The notes below the pieces were generated by a model that searched no databases, was not told where the DNA came from, and saw nothing but the letters and a program-made list of their open reading frames with translations. Of a stretch of DNA of 64,000 nt, positions 9,890 through 28,200 are shown piece after piece (positions within the stretch are counted from its first letter, which is position 1; the number at the start of each line of letters is the position of its first letter). Source of the DNA: Porphyromonas uenonis DSM 23387 = JCM 13868 (lineage in GTDB: Bacteria; Bacteroidota; Bacteroidia; Bacteroidales; Porphyromonadaceae); assembly GCF_000482365.1 (NCBI RefSeq), contig NZ_KI535308.1, positions 121,823-185,822 of the forward strand, written 5' to 3'. Made by a program: the position numbers and the translations under genes.

Positions 9890-10439
9890 CTCTCCGCTCA
9901 GCGCCGCTTAAACGACCGCTAAGTTTCCCTTAAGCAACCGCTAAATGAGGCTGTTGAATAGCTCAGCAATCTTCCTCGTTCAGGTCGTTTTTTCCCAGCG
10001 TCGTTCCAATTTCATCTGGGTTAAACTAGAGTTTTATACAGGAGAAACTTTGGACTCCTTCGAAGATATGTCGTTTTATGCCTGAACTGAAGTGAGAAAC
10101 CTCTAGAAGAAAAACACGAAAAGCGCAACGAATAGGCGTCTTCCGCCCATCTAATCAACCAAATAGACGAGCATCGGACCATATTCCTCTAGAGATAGTT
10201 TTCAAAACGGTCAACTTTCGATTATACCACCAAAATAGATAGCACTAACTATAAGCGAGTTACGATTTTCTATCGGACAACTTATCAACAATTGAATGTT
10301 TTCTAGTTGATTTATTTGCCCACGTCAATTATTGGTTGTAATATTGCAAACGAAATCCGAGAAGCTCAGGGTCGTGACGTTCTTATAACGAAACCTCTCT
10401 AGCAGACTTAATCTTGTAACCCTTCATATATCTATTCAA
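9890..10439 (+). other. 550-bp AT-rich gap before nrdJ, no gene seen
   Basis: No credible reading frame, tRNA or large repeat was found here. The AT-rich part near 10290-10360 contains weak -7-like sequences (TTATTTG, TAATATTG) but none matches TAnnTTTG. There is no B12-box or NrdR-box sequence, although the next gene encodes a B12-dependent enzyme. Confidence 0.5.
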
Positions 10440-13013: not shown

Positions 13014-13036
13014 TCACAGATAAGCGCTAAACATCG

Positions 13037-13080
13037 GAAAACCCCACCATTGTACGACACAATGGTGGGGTTTTGTTTTG
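13037..13080. terminator. Bidirectional terminator between nrdJ and the OsmC gene
   Basis: A perfect 16-bp stem, AAAACCCCACCATTGT with its complement, encloses a 5-base loop (ACGAC). The 3' side ends in TTTTGTTTT and the 5' side begins AAAA, so it can end both nrdJ (+) and the OsmC gene (-). Confidence 0.9.
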
Positions 13081-13122
13081 GGTTCTTACAGCTTTTGCTG
13101 GCAGAGGGAAAACGCGCGCTCC

Positions 13123-18072: not shown

Positions 18073-18147
18073 ATTATTCTCGTTCTGTAGAGTTAGAATT
18101 AAGGTCTATACGATTGTAAGCTCAGAGAGTCATCTCCAGCTCCAATG

Positions 18148-18178
18148 CAAAAGTACCCAATCTGCGCCAATCGGCAAA
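18148..18178 (-). promoter_or_regulatory. Promoter of the asd operon
   Basis: Read on the minus strand, a -33 box TTTG (18178-18175) is followed by exactly 19 bp and the -7 box TACTTTTG (18155-18148), matching TTTG-N19-TAnnTTTG. The asd start codon lies about 70 bp further on. It is divergent from the riboswitch promoter, about 70 bp away. Confidence 0.8.
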
Positions 18179-18248
18179 AAGTTTCCACCGCACCACACAT
18201 CACCTCGAGGATAGGGTTTCATTTTTCGCAAAAAAGGCGGGTAGACGC

Positions 18249-18279
18249 TTTGATATATTCGAAAGTTATCGTACCTTTG
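18249..18279 (+). promoter_or_regulatory. Promoter of the cobalamin riboswitch transcript
   Basis: The -33 box TTTG (18249-18252), a 19-bp spacer and the -7 box TACCTTTG (18272-18279) match the phylum consensus exactly. Transcription should begin near 18286, some 40 bases before the riboswitch core. Confidence 0.8.
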
Positions 18280-18324
18280 TGGTGGCTTTGTGCTGAGAGT
18301 ACTTTCATCCCTCGAGTAGGGACT

Positions 18325-18480
18325 CGGAGTCCTCAAGGCTTAAAAGGGAATCAGGTGAAACTCCTGAACAGTCCCGCTGCTGTAATCCTCGCAAAGCAGG
18401 CATCATAACCACTGCACCTCGTATAAGTTGGTGTGGGAAGGGATGTCTGTATGAGGTAAGTCAGAAGACCTGCAAGGCTT
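18325..18480 (+). promoter_or_regulatory. Cobalamin (B12) riboswitch, apparently orphan
   Basis: The conserved parts occur in the right order: GGGAATCAGGTGAAACTCC (18347 onward), CAGTCCCGCTGCTGTAA, AACCACTG, GGTGTGGGAAGG, ATGAGGTAAGTCAG and the B12 box GTCAGAAGACCTGC (18460-18473). This is the adenosylcobalamin-class layout. Usually such an element stands before a btuB-type receptor or a B12 synthesis gene and represses it when B12 is plentiful. Here no frame of 60 codons that looks genuine follows on the + strand before the terminator at 19625. Confidence 0.9.
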
Positions 18481-19162
18481 GAAGCGCTACGAGGTATAGC
18501 ATAAGGAAATAACCGTCAACCTTCAGATCCTAGTCTGAGACTTCTATTCCCCCAGCTGTACGCTCCTCGCTACTCCTAGTCGAGCGCGACGGGAGATGTA
18601 TGTTACAATGCGAGCGATGCATCTAGGCATCACACCACGATGAGTAGTGAATGGGACATCTTGAGTGCCTACCAGCTTTCTCGGCGAGAAGTAGCTGTGA
18701 CACAACCTTCCGAGTCAAAAAAGCTTTGATCACAGTAATGCACCTAGGAGACTCTTTGGATGCTCATACGAGACTAGATAGGAGGACATTTACTTTAAAA
18801 ATAGGGGAACGTTTTCGATAAAGTGATTGAGCAATGTCTTGCTACTACGATCTCCCTGAGTACCATAAAGGTATGCGTGCTACCCTAGCACCCGTGCCAT
18901 ACGAGATCTATTAGGTGTCTGATCGTCACTACAAGGGGAAGCATACAGCAGGCTCTCGTCTATGCCACTGTCCCTATATTATACTATGCTAGTGCGTGCG
19001 ACCTAGACCAATCTGTGTCACCACGGAATCTGTGCAGAGCGACCACTGTACATACTTATCACTTGAGGAGCAGCTGTAGGTTCTAGTCAGTCTACCCAAG
19101 ACTAGGTGATAGACCAATAGATCCTCTTGCCACCCCGAGCAAATCATGATGCGAGTCATAAG

Positions 19163-19337
19163 GAGACTGTTGCAAAAGTCAACAGTCTCACAATCTTGCT
19201 TGCAAGATTGTCTAGACTTTGCAGAAAGGATGAAGCGCAAGGCGCTGAGGGTGAGAGCTGAAGGGAGCATACCTCCGTATGTGACCGAAGCCGAATCCCG
19301 AAAGCAACACAGCGATTCGCCTTTATGCAACAGTCTC
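19163..19337 (-). mobile_element. 175-bp MITE, copy 2
   Basis: A complete copy with 12-bp inverted ends GAGACTGTTGCA and TGCAACAGTCTC, in the opposite orientation to copies 1 and 3. The hairpin-bearing end lies at the left. It sits inside the riboswitch transcription unit. No matching target duplication was seen beside it. Confidence 0.85.
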
Positions 19338-19624
19338 AGGGTGAGGCCACAACCTCACTCCGTAAAGCTGAGAGGATCCGCTACTAAGAGACAGGTATGG
19401 TGCGTACCACTGGTCACAGGTTAAGTGTGTGTTGAAAAAGACCAGCCACTACCACCCTACTCTCCCTCAAAGAGAGTCTCACCGTAGCCCACACCCCTCT
19501 TCAGATGAGCATCGTGGTCACTGTTCCGCTCTAGGAGAGTCCCGTTGACCAGCTCAACGGACTCTAGAAGAAGCTATGCCACACGCCATGTGACGGTATA
19601 GCGAACCAGAGCTTTCGAATGGTT

Positions 19625-19676
19625 GAAGTCCACACGCAGTACTATGAGTACTTGTCGTGTGGACTTCTCTTTTTAA
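19625..19676 (+). terminator. Terminator of the riboswitch transcription unit
   Basis: A long stem (GAAGTCCACACG with CGTGTGGACTTC, extended by AGTAC/GTACT around a short loop) is followed by TCTTTTTAA. The T tract is only on the + side, so it acts on + strand transcription. Confidence 0.75.
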
Positions 19677-19695
19677 TACTGACGTGTAGCGACAT

Positions 19696-19860
19696 GTAGG
19701 GACGCACGGCAAGTGTCGAGCCAGCCAAAACGAGTAACGATTTGTAGGGACGCACGGTCGTGCGTCCATCCCCGTTAAAACTACGATGCTGGAACCTTTG
19801 ATGCAACAGACGACAACGGACGCCCTCCGACTAGACACTCACCGTGCATCCCTACACAGG
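19696..19860. repeat. Cluster of GTAGGGACGCACGG-type repeats
   Basis: TGTAGGGACGCACGG occurs near 19696 and near 19743, the second forming a perfect 20-bp palindrome GGACGCACGGTCGTGCGTCC at 19748-19767. A related reverse segment, CACCGTGCATCCCTACAC, is near 19841-19858. Such short palindromic repeats are common in bacterial intergenic DNA. They lie downstream of the tRNA-Ala gene. Confidence 0.6.
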
Positions 19861-22963: not shown

Positions 22964-23151
22964 ACGAGTTTGAGAAGATTGATTTCACTCGCAAAGGTAC
23001 TCCAAAGATGTTAACGATGTGTGACACATACACTTCGGCAGTTTCTATCCTAAAAGGTCTTCATTGCACAAAAAGCATGACACAGATCATCGTTGCATAT
23101 ACATTTCGCTATATGGACTTGTTCCTAAAAGGTTAGTATCTCCATTTTCAC

Positions 23152-23159
23152 TATCTTTG
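23152..23159 (+). promoter_or_regulatory. Probable -7 element for gcvT
   Basis: TATCTTTG matches the -7 consensus TAnnTTTG about 62 bp before the gcvT ATG. No good TTTG is found 19 bp upstream, so the -33 box is weak. Confidence 0.45.
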
Positions 23160-23220
23160 GGGAGTGAACGAACTTAGCTCAACTAATTCAATACAGATCA
23201 ATCAATAACATCATACCATT

Positions 23221-24312
23221 ATGAAGACTACTCCATTTACAGAGCGACACATAGCACTGGGTGCTAAGATGCACGACTTCGCAGGCTACAATATGCCTAT
23301 CGAGTATCCTACCGGAATCCTTGAGGAGCATATGAATGTGATCAACGGCGTCGGCGTCTTTGACGTGTCACACATGGGAGAGTTTTGGGTCAAGGGACCG
23401 AAGGCTCTCGAATTCCTACAGAAAGTATCGAGCAACGATGCCTCCAAGCTGGAGGTTGGTCAGATACAGTACAGCTGCTTCACGACGGAGCAAGGCACAC
23501 TACTAGACGACTTCCTCGTATATCGCTACGAGGAGAACAAGTACATGCTCGTACCCAACGCTGCCAACGTGGTTAAGGACTGGGCATGGTGCCTCAAGCA
23601 AAACGATATGGGCGCTGACCTAGAGGATGGCTCCGCCAAGGTCGGACAGCTAGCCGTACAGGGCCCGAAGGCGACACAAGTCCTGCAGCGCCTGACGGAC
23701 ATCAATCTACTCGACATCCCCTACTACCACTTTACGGTAGGCATCTTCGCAGACTGCCCCAACGTGATCATCTCCAATACGGGCTACACGGGCTGCGGAG
23801 GCTTCGAGCTTTACTTCTTCCCCCAGTATGCCGACAAGATCTGGGACGCTATCTTTGAGGCTGGCAAGCCCGAGGGAATCATGCCAGCTGGTCTAGGTGC
23901 TCGTGATACGCTCCGTCTGGAGGCTGGTTTCTGCCTCTATGGCAACGATATCGACGATCAGCACACATCACTAGAGAGTGGCCTAGGCTGGATCACCAAG
24001 CTCACGGACAATAAGCCTGAGCTCGTAGGCCGTGAGGCTCTACTCAAGCAGAAGGCCGAGGGCGTAACGCGCAAGCTCGTAGCCTTCGAGATGGTCGACA
24101 AGGGCATCCCCCGTCAGCACTACGACATAGTCAACGAGGCTGGCGAGAAGATCGGCGTCGTCACCTCTGGTACCATGTCTCCCGCACTCAAGGTGGGCAT
24201 CGGTATGGGCTACGTCTCTACGGAGTACAGCAAGATAGACAGCAAGATCTACATCTCCGTCCGCAAGCGCAACCTCGAGGCTAAGGTGGTCAAGCCCCCC
24301 TTCCGCAAGTAA
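23221..24312 (+). CDS. gcvT: Aminomethyltransferase (glycine cleavage T protein)
   Basis: A 363-residue enzyme that takes the aminomethyl group from the lipoyl H protein and gives methylene-tetrahydrofolate and ammonia. Family sequence is clear throughout: the start [29 protein letters not shown], the region [29 protein letters not shown] and the C-terminal [17 protein letters not shown]. The ATG at 23221 fits the family start. It stands alone with its own terminator; gcvH and gcvP are not in the window. Confidence 0.95.
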
Positions 24313-25145: not shown

Positions 25146-25218
25146 ACCGCTGCCCTCAGCGCTAATTTCCGTACATTTGCAACGCAAGTAGTTTCAGACC
25201 CATTATACACAACCCGCT

Positions 25219-28200
25219 ATGATTAGTTACTTTGTCCTTGGTGATACGATTTATGCCGTCTCACACACCACAGCTCTCAGCAAGGAGACCTGCGAGCGTC
25301 TCTCGTGGCTCTTTGGCGGAGCGCAGCTAGCTCCCGAGTCTCATCTCGAGGGCACCTTTGTGGGACCTCGTCCTACGCAGGTGACTCCATGGAGCACCAA
25401 CGCTGTGGAGATAACGCAAAACATGCGCATCGCTGGCATCGATCGTATCGAGCAGCTCACACGTACTCACGAGGCGAAGCCGCACTACGACCCGATGCTC
25501 CAAGCGATCTACAAGGGGCTAGGTCAGGAGAGCTTCGCCATGACCGCTGAACCACAGCCGATTCGTGAGATCACGGATCTAGCGGCGTACAACGAGGAGG
25601 AGGGACTAGCTCTAAGCGAGGAGGAGATAGCCTACCTACAGGGCGTCTCGGCACGCATAGGTCGCCCGCTGACTGACTCTGAGGTCTTCGGCTTCTCCCA
25701 GGTCAACTCAGAGCACTGCCGCCATAAGATATTCAACGGCACTTTCGTCATCGATGGTTTGCGACAAAACGATTCGCTCTTTGCGATGATCAAGCAAACC
25801 TCCAAGGAGAACCCCAACGGCATCGTATCGGCTTACAAGGACAATGTGGCTTTTGTCAAGGGTCCCCGCGTCTGGCAGTTTGCGCCAACGAGCGCGACGG
25901 AGCCCTCGCTCTTTACACTACGGGAGCGCAATACGGTCTTGGCTCTAAAGGCTGAGACGCACAACTTCCCCACGACGGTCGAGCCCTTCAACGGGGCGGC
26001 TACTGGCTCGGGCGGTGAGATACGCGACCGTATGTGCGGCGGCAAGGGGTCGCTACCACTCTCTGGTAGTGCCGTCTACATCACCTCCTACCCACGTCTA
26101 GAGAAGGATCAGAAGCTTAGCCCCGCCAAGCTAGACCCACGCCCGTGGCTTTACCAGTCTCCGCAAGAGATTCTGACGAAAGCGAGCGACGGCGCTAGTG
26201 ACTTTGGCAATAAGTTTGGACAGCCACTGATCAACGGTTCGCTACTCACCTTCGAGCATCAGGAGGGTGCCGACAGCACGCTCTACGGCTACGATAAGGT
26301 GATCATGCTGGCGGGCGGTATGGGCTACGCTCCCCAGGAGGATGCTAAGAAGGAGACGCCACAGCCTGGCGAGACGGTCGTGCTACTCGGTGGCGACAAC
26401 TACCGCATCGGTATGGGTGGCGGTGCCGTCAGCTCTGTCGCTACAGGCGAGTACAGTAGCGGTATCGAGCTTAATGCGGTACAGCGTGCCAACCCTGAGA
26501 TGCAGAAGCGTGTCCTCAACGTGGTCCGCGCCATCAGCGAGCAGGGCGACAACCCGATCGTGAGTATCCACGACCACGGTGCTGGCGGGCACCTGAACTG
26601 TCTCACCGAGCTGATCGAGGAGACGGGAGGACGCATCGACATTGACGCACTTCCCGTCGGCGACCCGACGCTCTCCGCTAGAGAGATCATCGGCAATGAG
26701 AGCCAAGAGCGTGTCGGTCTGCTCATCCAGGAGCGTGAGTATGCGCAGATGGAGCAGATAGCACGTCGTGAGGGCAGTCCTATATATAAGGTAGGCGAGA
26801 CGACCGACGATGAGCGCCTCCTCTTTAGCACAGAGCGGGAGGGACGCGCTGCCATCGACCTAGCCGTATCCGACCTTCTGGGGCAATCGCCCAAGACGGT
26901 TATGGAGGACGAGACGGTCGCTCATCAGTTTGCCCCAGTAAGCTATGACAAAGAGCTGTGGCGCGAATATCTAGACAAAGTATTGACCCTCGAAGCGGTC
27001 GCCTCTAAGGATTGGTTGACCAACAAAGTGGACCGCTCCGTGACGGGTCGTGTGGCACAGCAGCAGTGCGTCGGTGCGCTCCAGCTACCGCTCTCCGACC
27101 TCGGTGCTATGGCACTAGACTACGACGGTAAGAGCGGTATGGCTACTGCCGTAGGACATGCTCCTCAGGTGGCACTTATCGATGCTGGGGCTGGCTCTCG
27201 GATGGCTATCGCAGAGGCTCTGACGAACATTGTCTTTGCACCCATCGAGGGCGGCATACGTGGCATCTCGCTCAGCGCTAACTGGATGTGGCCTTGTCGC
27301 AACAAGGGCGAGGACGCACGCCTCTATCAGGCGGTGCAGGCTTGTAGTGAGTTTGCCATAGATCTAGGGATCAACATCCCGACGGGCAAGGACTCGCTCT
27401 CCATGACGCAGAAGTATCCCGACGGAAAGCAGGTGATGAGCCCAGGCACACTGATCATCACCGCTGCAGCTCCCGTAAGCAACGTCAGGGGCATCGTGAC
27501 GCCTGAGCTCAAGGTGGCTAAGCAGAGCCGTCTACTTTACATCGACTTTAGCTTTGCTCCGATGGCACTCGGTGGCTCAGCTTTGGCACAAGCATTGGGA
27601 CAGCTGGGCGACAGCTTCCCCACAGTCGGCGACACCGACTACTTCGCTACCGCCTTTGAGGCCGTTCAGGAGTTGATCCACAAGGGCTTAGTCCTAGCTG
27701 GTCACGACATCTCGGCGGGCGGTATGGTCACAACGCTCTTGGAGATGTGCTTTGCCAATACGCAGGGTGGCGCTGAGATTAGCCTCGATGAGCTCGCCAA
27801 TGTGGACCTTGTCACGGCGCTCTATAGCGAGAACCCGGGCGTCATCCTACAGGTTTCTAAGGCAGAGCAGGCGAAGCGTATCCTCGAGGAGTATGAGATC
27901 GCTTATGCCGACCTCGGCGCACCCACCGAGTCTCGTCTGCTGATGATCCATCAAGAAGGCAAAACGTACGAGATCGACATCGATGCTGCGCGCAAGTGCT
28001 GGGCAAACAAATCTTACCTGCTGGACTGCTTCCAGAGTGGCGAAGCTCCAGCAACGAGTCGCTACGAGAACCTAGGCAAGCAGCCCGTACAGTGGCGCTT
28101 CCCGCACGCTTTCGCTGGCACTTATGCGGGTCTCGGCCTAGAGCCTCATCGCACGAAGGCATCAGGCATCAAGGCAGCTATCCTACGAGACAACGGAACC

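Follow-up and report, generated by a model that had tools for sequence, protein, structure and literature searches.

A cobalamin riboswitch at the head of a gene-free unit: a predicted stand-alone RNA in a member of the Porphyromonadaceae

Riboswitches are generally regarded as cis-acting controls of genes. What, then, does a full-length cobalamin riboswitch control when no gene lies behind it? Such an element is found in the 64-kb stretch of DNA analysed here (64,000 nucleotides, hereafter the window), which comes from a genome of 2.25 Mb (G000). Between positions 18249 and 19676, a promoter and a full riboswitch are followed by ~1.1 kb in which no credible gene is seen, and then by a terminator hairpin of 12 bp. 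Overall, sequence comparison suggests that this unit is probably a gene in its own right, whose product would be a structured RNA (~1.24 kb in the relatives) gated by B12 and acting in trans. The unit comprises the following features.

18249..18279, plus strand: Bacteroidetes-type promoter, TTTG-N19-TACCTTTG, by sequence match
18297..18489, plus strand: cobalamin riboswitch aptamer, full length, by Rfam RF00174
18387..18391, plus strand: CCTCG within the aptamer, proposed loop partner of the next hairpin, by complementarity judged by eye
18485..19158, plus strand: 5′ structured part, a long branched rod in the prediction, by consensus fold
18486..18500, plus strand: P13-like hairpin GCTA-CGAGGTA-TAGC directly after the aptamer core, identical in five of five genomes
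18523..18538, plus strand: possible hairpin TCAGA-TCCTAG-TCTGA, identical in five of five genomes, in a stretch that the consensus fold pairs otherwise
18545..18553, plus strand: C-rich stretch TATTCCCCC, which reads TATTCCCTC or TATTCCCC in three relatives
19163..19337, no strand assigned: MITE-like insertion of 175 bp with 15-nt terminal inverted repeats, multicopy in its own genome
19338..19676, plus strand: 3′ structured part with the terminator, by consensus fold
19536..19565, plus strand: hairpin with compensatory changes, both partners of 3 of its 12 pairs differing in one genome or more
19625..19674, plus strand: intrinsic terminator (12-bp stem, inner hairpin, TCTTTTT), by sequence and consensus fold

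The preliminary description of this locus had named a promoter, a full cobalamin riboswitch and a strong terminator, and all three hold. The promoter was called with what we take to be the Bacteroidetes consensus; exact matches to TTTG-N18-20-TANNTTTG number two in the 64-kb window, compared to 0.10 expected from shuffles, and the one at 18249-18279 has the 19-nucleotide spacer. The second match (18148-18178, minus strand) lies upstream of asd and is divergent from the RNA promoter; asd itself starts 177 bp upstream of that promoter, on the other strand. The promoter region (18249-18283) is unchanged in G001, G025 and G022, and differs at 3 of 35 positions in G024. The Rfam covariance model RF00174 matches 18297-18489 over its full length (model positions 1-189 of 189) with 84.9 bits (cut-off 31.5, E 1.7e-19). 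The terminator stem is a perfect 12-bp inverted repeat (GAAGTCCACACG at 19625-19636 and CGTGTGGACTTC at 19656-19667) followed by TCTTTTT, and 18 of 18 predicted pairs of the hairpin are unchanged in all five genomes. A strict terminator scan, restricted to loops of 3-8 nucleotides, listed nothing on the plus strand, this hairpin included. Beyond the terminator lie a tRNA and then, on the other strand, a gene for an 806-aa receptor-like protein whose sole Pfam match is a carboxypeptidase-regulatory-like domain; the next credible gene on the same strand is gcvT, at 23221. With a tRNA and an opposite-strand gene as its neighbours, the riboswitch is thus without a gene in reach.

The sequence behind the aptamer is constrained. 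A search with 18485-19158 matched 5 of 38 genomes in a sample of the family, namely its own and four close relatives (G001, G022, G024 and G025). With insertion and gap columns excluded, the divergence over 18490-19618 is 57/948 (0.060) for G024, 87/945 (0.092) for G001 and 83/945 (0.088) for G025, compared to pS values of 0.182, 0.286 (nine nearby genes pooled for each) and 0.298 (five genes), respectively; for G022, compared by divergence alone, it is 0.087. The post-aptamer RNA changes approximately 3-fold more slowly than nearby synonymous sites, including a faster part (19451-19618, divergence 0.11–0.15) in which 29 nucleotides are missing from the window. The RNA is also retained in G025, although asd, its upstream neighbour in the window, is ~240 kb away there. 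Identical letters make up 0.88–0.95 of the RNA, compared to 0.15–0.57 in two intergenic stretches just downstream. Elsewhere, intergenic identity is high at 25146-25218 (0.97 and 0.96) and 18073-18206 (0.84–0.91), and lower at 9893-10439 (0.33–0.80) and 13014-13122 (0.44–0.62). As such stretches span 0.15–0.98, intergenic DNA alone is not decisive, and synonymous sites are the stronger yardstick. One stretch upstream of gcvT (22970-23215) is 98% identical to G001 and 80% identical to the otherwise nearer G024, a pattern that possibly reflects recombination or an unknown element. Judged by substitution rates, the post-aptamer sequence is under purifying selection, and the locus is very likely a functional RNA gene. 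At E≤0.001, 18485-19158 has neither a further copy nor a long antisense partner in its own genome; for the 3′ part, which was searched jointly with the insertion, copies of the insertion fill the match list.

That insertion, a 175-bp repeated element at 19163-19337, adds to the locus as first described. Its terminal repeats are GAGACTGTTGCAAAA. It has at least 15 matches in its own genome, i.e. the locus and 14 others (14 of 86 candidates scored), and those 14 others all cover about this element. It is absent from the homologous site in all four relatives. Copies of at least 92% identity occur in G001, G016, G022, G024 and G025, and less similar copies elsewhere in the genus. In the relatives, the predicted RNA extends over 1,031–1,036 nucleotides between the CGAGG hairpin and the close of the terminator stem; with a start assumed near 18286, the whole RNA would be ~1.24 kb in the relatives and ~1.39 kb in the window, where it carries the insertion.

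Both flanks of the insertion are predicted to be structured. The fold energy has a z-score of -3.0 for 18485-19158 (20 shuffles) and -5.0 for 19338-19676 (100 shuffles); 18460-18720 folded alone is no better than shuffles (z -0.9). Variable columns are rarer among paired than unpaired positions in the 5′ part (42/431 and 45/236; odds ratio 2.2, p 0.001) and in the 3′ part (28/219 and 38/109; odds ratio 3.7, p 8e-6), a test favoured by circularity, as the structure was predicted from the same five close sequences. The covariation score of the 3′ part (0.083 vs 0.067) was reached by none of 500 shuffles, while shuffles often match its four pairs with changes in both partners (179/500); the 5′ part has no covariation excess (score reached by 76/500 shuffles). 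Covariation among five such close sequences thus lends modest support to the predicted structure. Cobalamin was the sole Rfam family matched over 18240-19700 at E≤1.

Directly after the aptamer, the CGAGG loop of the hairpin at 18486-18500 is complementary to CCTCG at 18387-18391. Both are invariant in five of five genomes and consequently yield zero covariation. Kissing between a post-aptamer hairpin loop and an aptamer loop is usual in cobalamin riboswitches. The genome contains five RF00174 elements, and the four other than ours all precede ORFs. One of these is nrdD, which encodes a B12-independent ribonucleotide reductase and has its riboswitch ~95 nucleotides upstream (locus L053, 5788-8507); by eye, a TonB-receptor-like gene lies behind another. 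The ribonucleotide reductase encoded near our locus, NrdJ, is B12-dependent (TIGR02504), as had been stated initially. Its proximity is, however, weak evidence for a connection, since ~240 kb separates the RNA from asd and nrdJ alike in G025. A cell with a B12-dependent NrdJ and a riboswitch-headed, B12-independent NrdD is one in which B12 supply matters.

Does this unit stand alone? Cobalamin riboswitches, 85 matches in all, are present in 23 of the 26 genus genomes. We examined the downstream region of 62, in addition to the four others of the window's genome and five of the window clade; the 14 left out are all in the four close relatives. By eye, 20 of the 62 are orphans (12 of type 1 and 8 of type 2, in 18 genomes), and, with the window clade, every one of the 23 riboswitch-bearing genomes has at least one; in this sorting by eye, conservation of the stretch is visible only where a near relative exists, and the contig behind the G023 call ends after 241 nucleotides. 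By a mechanical criterion (no start of an ORF of 100 aa or longer on the same strand over the next 280 nucleotides), 27/62 riboswitches in the genus, 8/30 in the sister genus and 1/26 in other Bacteroidales are orphans. The last sample represents other families; from 14 hand-picked genomes it retained 26 of 28 matches, in 12 genomes, the two excluded matches being weak and one of these above the cut-off. The 27 include 16 of the 20 orphans called by eye; the remaining four have an ORF of 100–119 aa within 280 nucleotides, which we judged to be due to chance. The motif TAnnTTTG occurs between -60 and +30 of the aptamer start in 30 of 30 orphans (~1.9 expected). At 10 loci of other orphans, Cobalamin and tRNA were the sole Rfam families above the cut-off.

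Type-1 orphans share an order of elements: the aptamer, a hairpin with a CGAGG loop, further hairpins and a long terminator-like hairpin, which lies ~200–250 nucleotides 3′ of the aptamer in nine genomes and farther in three. As MAFFT alignments of their 3′ parts misplaced stem arms, we relied on invariant loops with shuffled controls instead of a covariance model. An AUGAGC loop is carried on changing stems in 10/12 (mean 0.1 and maximum 2 over 500 shuffles) and a GCAG loop in 8/12 (mean 1.1, maximum 5), counts that represent fewer independent events as G006, G008 and G009 are near relatives. Both motifs also top an unguided ranking of all 4-mers; the G017 and G019 RNAs have neither loop. Nine of the 12 were folded, with z-scores of -2.4 to -5.4. 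Downstream, 5/12 have a same-strand ORF of 169–351 aa starting at 360–513 nucleotides, and in 3/12 an opposite-strand ORF comes next; the neighbour thus differs between cases.

Type-2 orphans have a conserved C-rich segment. In L082, L087, L089 and L072 (G002, G011, G013 and G017), the segment CCTCCAACCTATCCAAAACCGCCCC, located several hundred bases 3′ of the riboswitch, is nearly invariant. A third type, with a conserved hairpin and a UUCCC stretch, is present in 10 of 12 genomes of the sister genus (30 of 46 matches examined); six that were folded have z-scores of -1.7 to -3.4. Only opposite-strand ORFs neighbour 3/10 of these, another 3/10 have a same-strand ORF at 418–547 nucleotides, and 4/10 have a same-strand ORF of 393–430 aa starting 209–319 nucleotides downstream. 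The last may be genes controlled by the riboswitch, and some orphans elsewhere, such as the five of type 1 with a same-strand ORF at 360–513 nucleotides, may likewise be long leaders. Two arrangements involve paired riboswitches. L059 (G012, minus strand) has tandem cobalamin riboswitches (409109-409323 and 407256-407459) ~1.65 kb apart, with same-strand ORFs of at least 100 aa absent within 1,500 nucleotides of the first. In L086 (G009), an orphan riboswitch RNA (25503-25701) is followed ~300 nucleotides on by a second riboswitch (26003-26251) that precedes a 757-aa ORF.

The window RNA looks like the type-1 orphans in plan, as a gene-free unit behind a cobalamin riboswitch, and has a type-1-like CGAGG hairpin and C-rich stretch. 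Its aptamer is also close to theirs: 8 of the 14 most similar among 96 aptamers belong to type 1, which accounts for 12 of the 96, with gene-linked aptamers ranking 3rd, 5th, 6th, 7th and 10th. The AUGAGC and GCAG loops are absent from all five members of the window clade and, as these are the diagnostic loops, kinship with type 1 is unproven. Two sequence-based markers were discarded. A 12-base motif search across 61 genomes used a motif too short for specificity. A hairpin pattern searched in 393 genomes of the order matched six, i.e. the window genome, three others of the genus (all four of the genus in that sample), G141 and G264; it was rejected as an orphan marker because the matches in G011, G013, G264 and G141 (261 nucleotides) precede ORFs within 280 nucleotides. 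By the sequence evidence, the locus is one of a recurrent set of riboswitch-headed units in the family. A metatranscriptome study reports up-regulation of a Porphyromonas transcript in which a cobalamin riboswitch precedes a hypothetical protein (PMC7160235). None of the titles and abstract openings searched, mostly outside subscription papers, describes these RNAs.

How might the unit work? Cobalamin riboswitches habitually lower output upon corrinoid binding, and control of the predicted RNA by a corrinoid is likely. The corrinoid would bind the aptamer, and kissing of the CGAGG loop with CCTCG would lower output. By this habit, the full RNA would accumulate when B12 is scarce, and the analogy makes synthesis at low B12 reasonably probable. 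What is described for Rli55 in Listeria points in the same direction (PMC8079631). The RNA could then offer its constrained structures and C-rich stretch in trans to a protein or to mRNAs, and such action might tune metabolism to B12 lack; whether a protein or RNA partner in trans is indeed involved we regard as evenly balanced. The option of a B12-controlled regulatory RNA, raised at the outset, is favoured by the constraint, the predicted structure and the recurrence of such units.

Alternatively, the RNA could act by base-pairing, with its C-rich stretch or other open segments binding mRNAs, e.g. those of B12-dependent enzymes, under B12 scarcity, much as RyhB spares iron. By eye, a UUCCC-like stretch follows the first hairpins in the window clade and, at a position similar to 18545-18553, in many of the shorter orphan RNAs of types 1 and 3, and the conserved C-rich segment of type 2 fits the same idea. 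However, the Cs of type 1 lie partly within a small hairpin, G012 has UUCCAC instead, and no target was found among the 31 gene starts of the window, where a naive duplex-energy test that ignores accessibility ranked nrdJ 23rd. We consider this alternative rather unlikely.

It is also improbable that the corrinoid reshapes the whole long RNA, as a scaffold, sponge or complex, and leaves its synthesis unswitched. In keeping with such an RNA machine, the strict scan (loops 3-8) found no terminator directly 3′ of the aptamer, no gene start follows it, and the downstream RNA is predicted to be large and structured. On the other hand, the downstream RNAs of nine of the 12 type-1 orphans are far shorter (~200–250 nucleotides), such that a role common to all of them would not call for a large machine.

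That the locus conceals a small protein, alone or within a dual-function RNA, is very unlikely. The longest ORFs inside the window region (113 aa, minus strand, 18989-19330; 92 aa, plus strand, 19146-19424) both cross the insertion. With the insertion removed, the longest ORFs over 18207-19700 and its counterparts are 56, 75, 57, 87 and 87 aa in the five homologues, while 300 shufflings of the window sequence gave 92 aa on average, which agrees with the original view that no credible protein gene is present. The counterparts of the unit in the four close relatives contain no ORF of 100 aa or longer (a pair of 102–103 aa overlap the first stretch only), nor does one start on the same strand within 1 kb 3′ of the unit (~200 nucleotides covered in G022). 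The opposite strand holds no credible gene either, and a protein in another frame was rejected as no ORF exceeds chance length. Across all five genomes, 20 short frames (18–87 codons) begin at a common position; two are constant in length (23 and 27 codons, both beginning with GTG), and an opposite-strand frame has 52, 52, 52, 52 and 38 codons. However, 13 of the 20 begin with GTG or TTG, most vary in length among the genomes, and none is longer than chance.

The preliminary description had also considered a remnant of a btuB-type locus, i.e. a scar in which promoter, riboswitch and terminator were left over from a lost B12-uptake gene. The TonB-receptor-like gene behind another riboswitch of the genome gives this idea some basis, but in the four close genomes the unit contains no gene and encloses no ORF of at least 100 aa, and the ~3-fold slower change than at synonymous sites (purifying selection) and the predicted structure are at odds with decay. 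A decayed gene is rejected on the divergence rates together with the four relatives, and a scar of any kind is highly improbable. Finally, a long leader of a distant gene is barely credible given the strong terminator, the tRNA and opposite-strand 806-aa gene that come next and the distance to gcvT (23221), even if the genome's four other riboswitches precede ORFs and, in some orphans elsewhere, an ORF of the same strand lies past the terminator.

The reading as a B12-gated, trans-acting RNA also has a wider form, which we put forward tentatively and consider somewhat doubtful: that the orphans may constitute an undescribed class of stand-alone, B12-gated structured RNAs characteristic of Porphyromonadaceae, of ~0.4–1.2 kb including the aptamer, through which, in trans, the family would respond to a lack of B12, with the window RNA the longest and among the largest structured bacterial RNAs outside rRNA. 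The same-strand ORFs near 4/10 of the sister-genus cases lower the odds of this reading. Since, by eye, each of 23 genus genomes has a gene-free riboswitch-headed stretch, such a response to B12 in trans may be widespread in the genus. The locus is concrete and deletable, its loops are testable, and its ligand can be supplied or withheld.

Several known systems invite comparison. With a full-length aptamer far above the cut-off, the element belongs to RF00174, but members of this family usually lie upstream of a protein gene (25/26 in the other-Bacteroidales sample), whereas the window unit is without one. GOLLD, ROOL and OLE are, as the window RNA is predicted to be, long, structured and non-coding, but none matched 18240-19700 by covariance model at E≤1. 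Many GOLLD RNAs exceed 800 nucleotides (PMC12286853). The preliminary description had likened the locus to the riboswitch-controlled RNAs of ethanolamine systems. This likeness extends to the general logic of a riboswitch before a non-coding RNA. The nearest genes are asd, the tRNA, the 806-aa receptor-like gene and gcvT; a search for ANTAR domains matched 0/26 genomes, and 0/14 control genomes as well. AspocR, also of Listeria, is antisense to pocR; the strand opposite the window unit has no credible gene. AspocR is a non-coding RNA that is controlled by a B12 riboswitch and inhibits pocR, and Rli55, of ~450 nucleotides, has an ANTAR element that sequesters EutV and is located near the eut operon (PMC8079631). 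The RNA predicted here would differ from Rli55 in length (~1.24 kb) and phylum. EutX of Enterococcus likewise has a B12 riboswitch before a separate non-coding RNA. The plan of Rli55 and EutX, in which a B12 riboswitch heads a gene-free unit with its own promoter and terminator, is the plan that the sequence of the window unit appears to follow.
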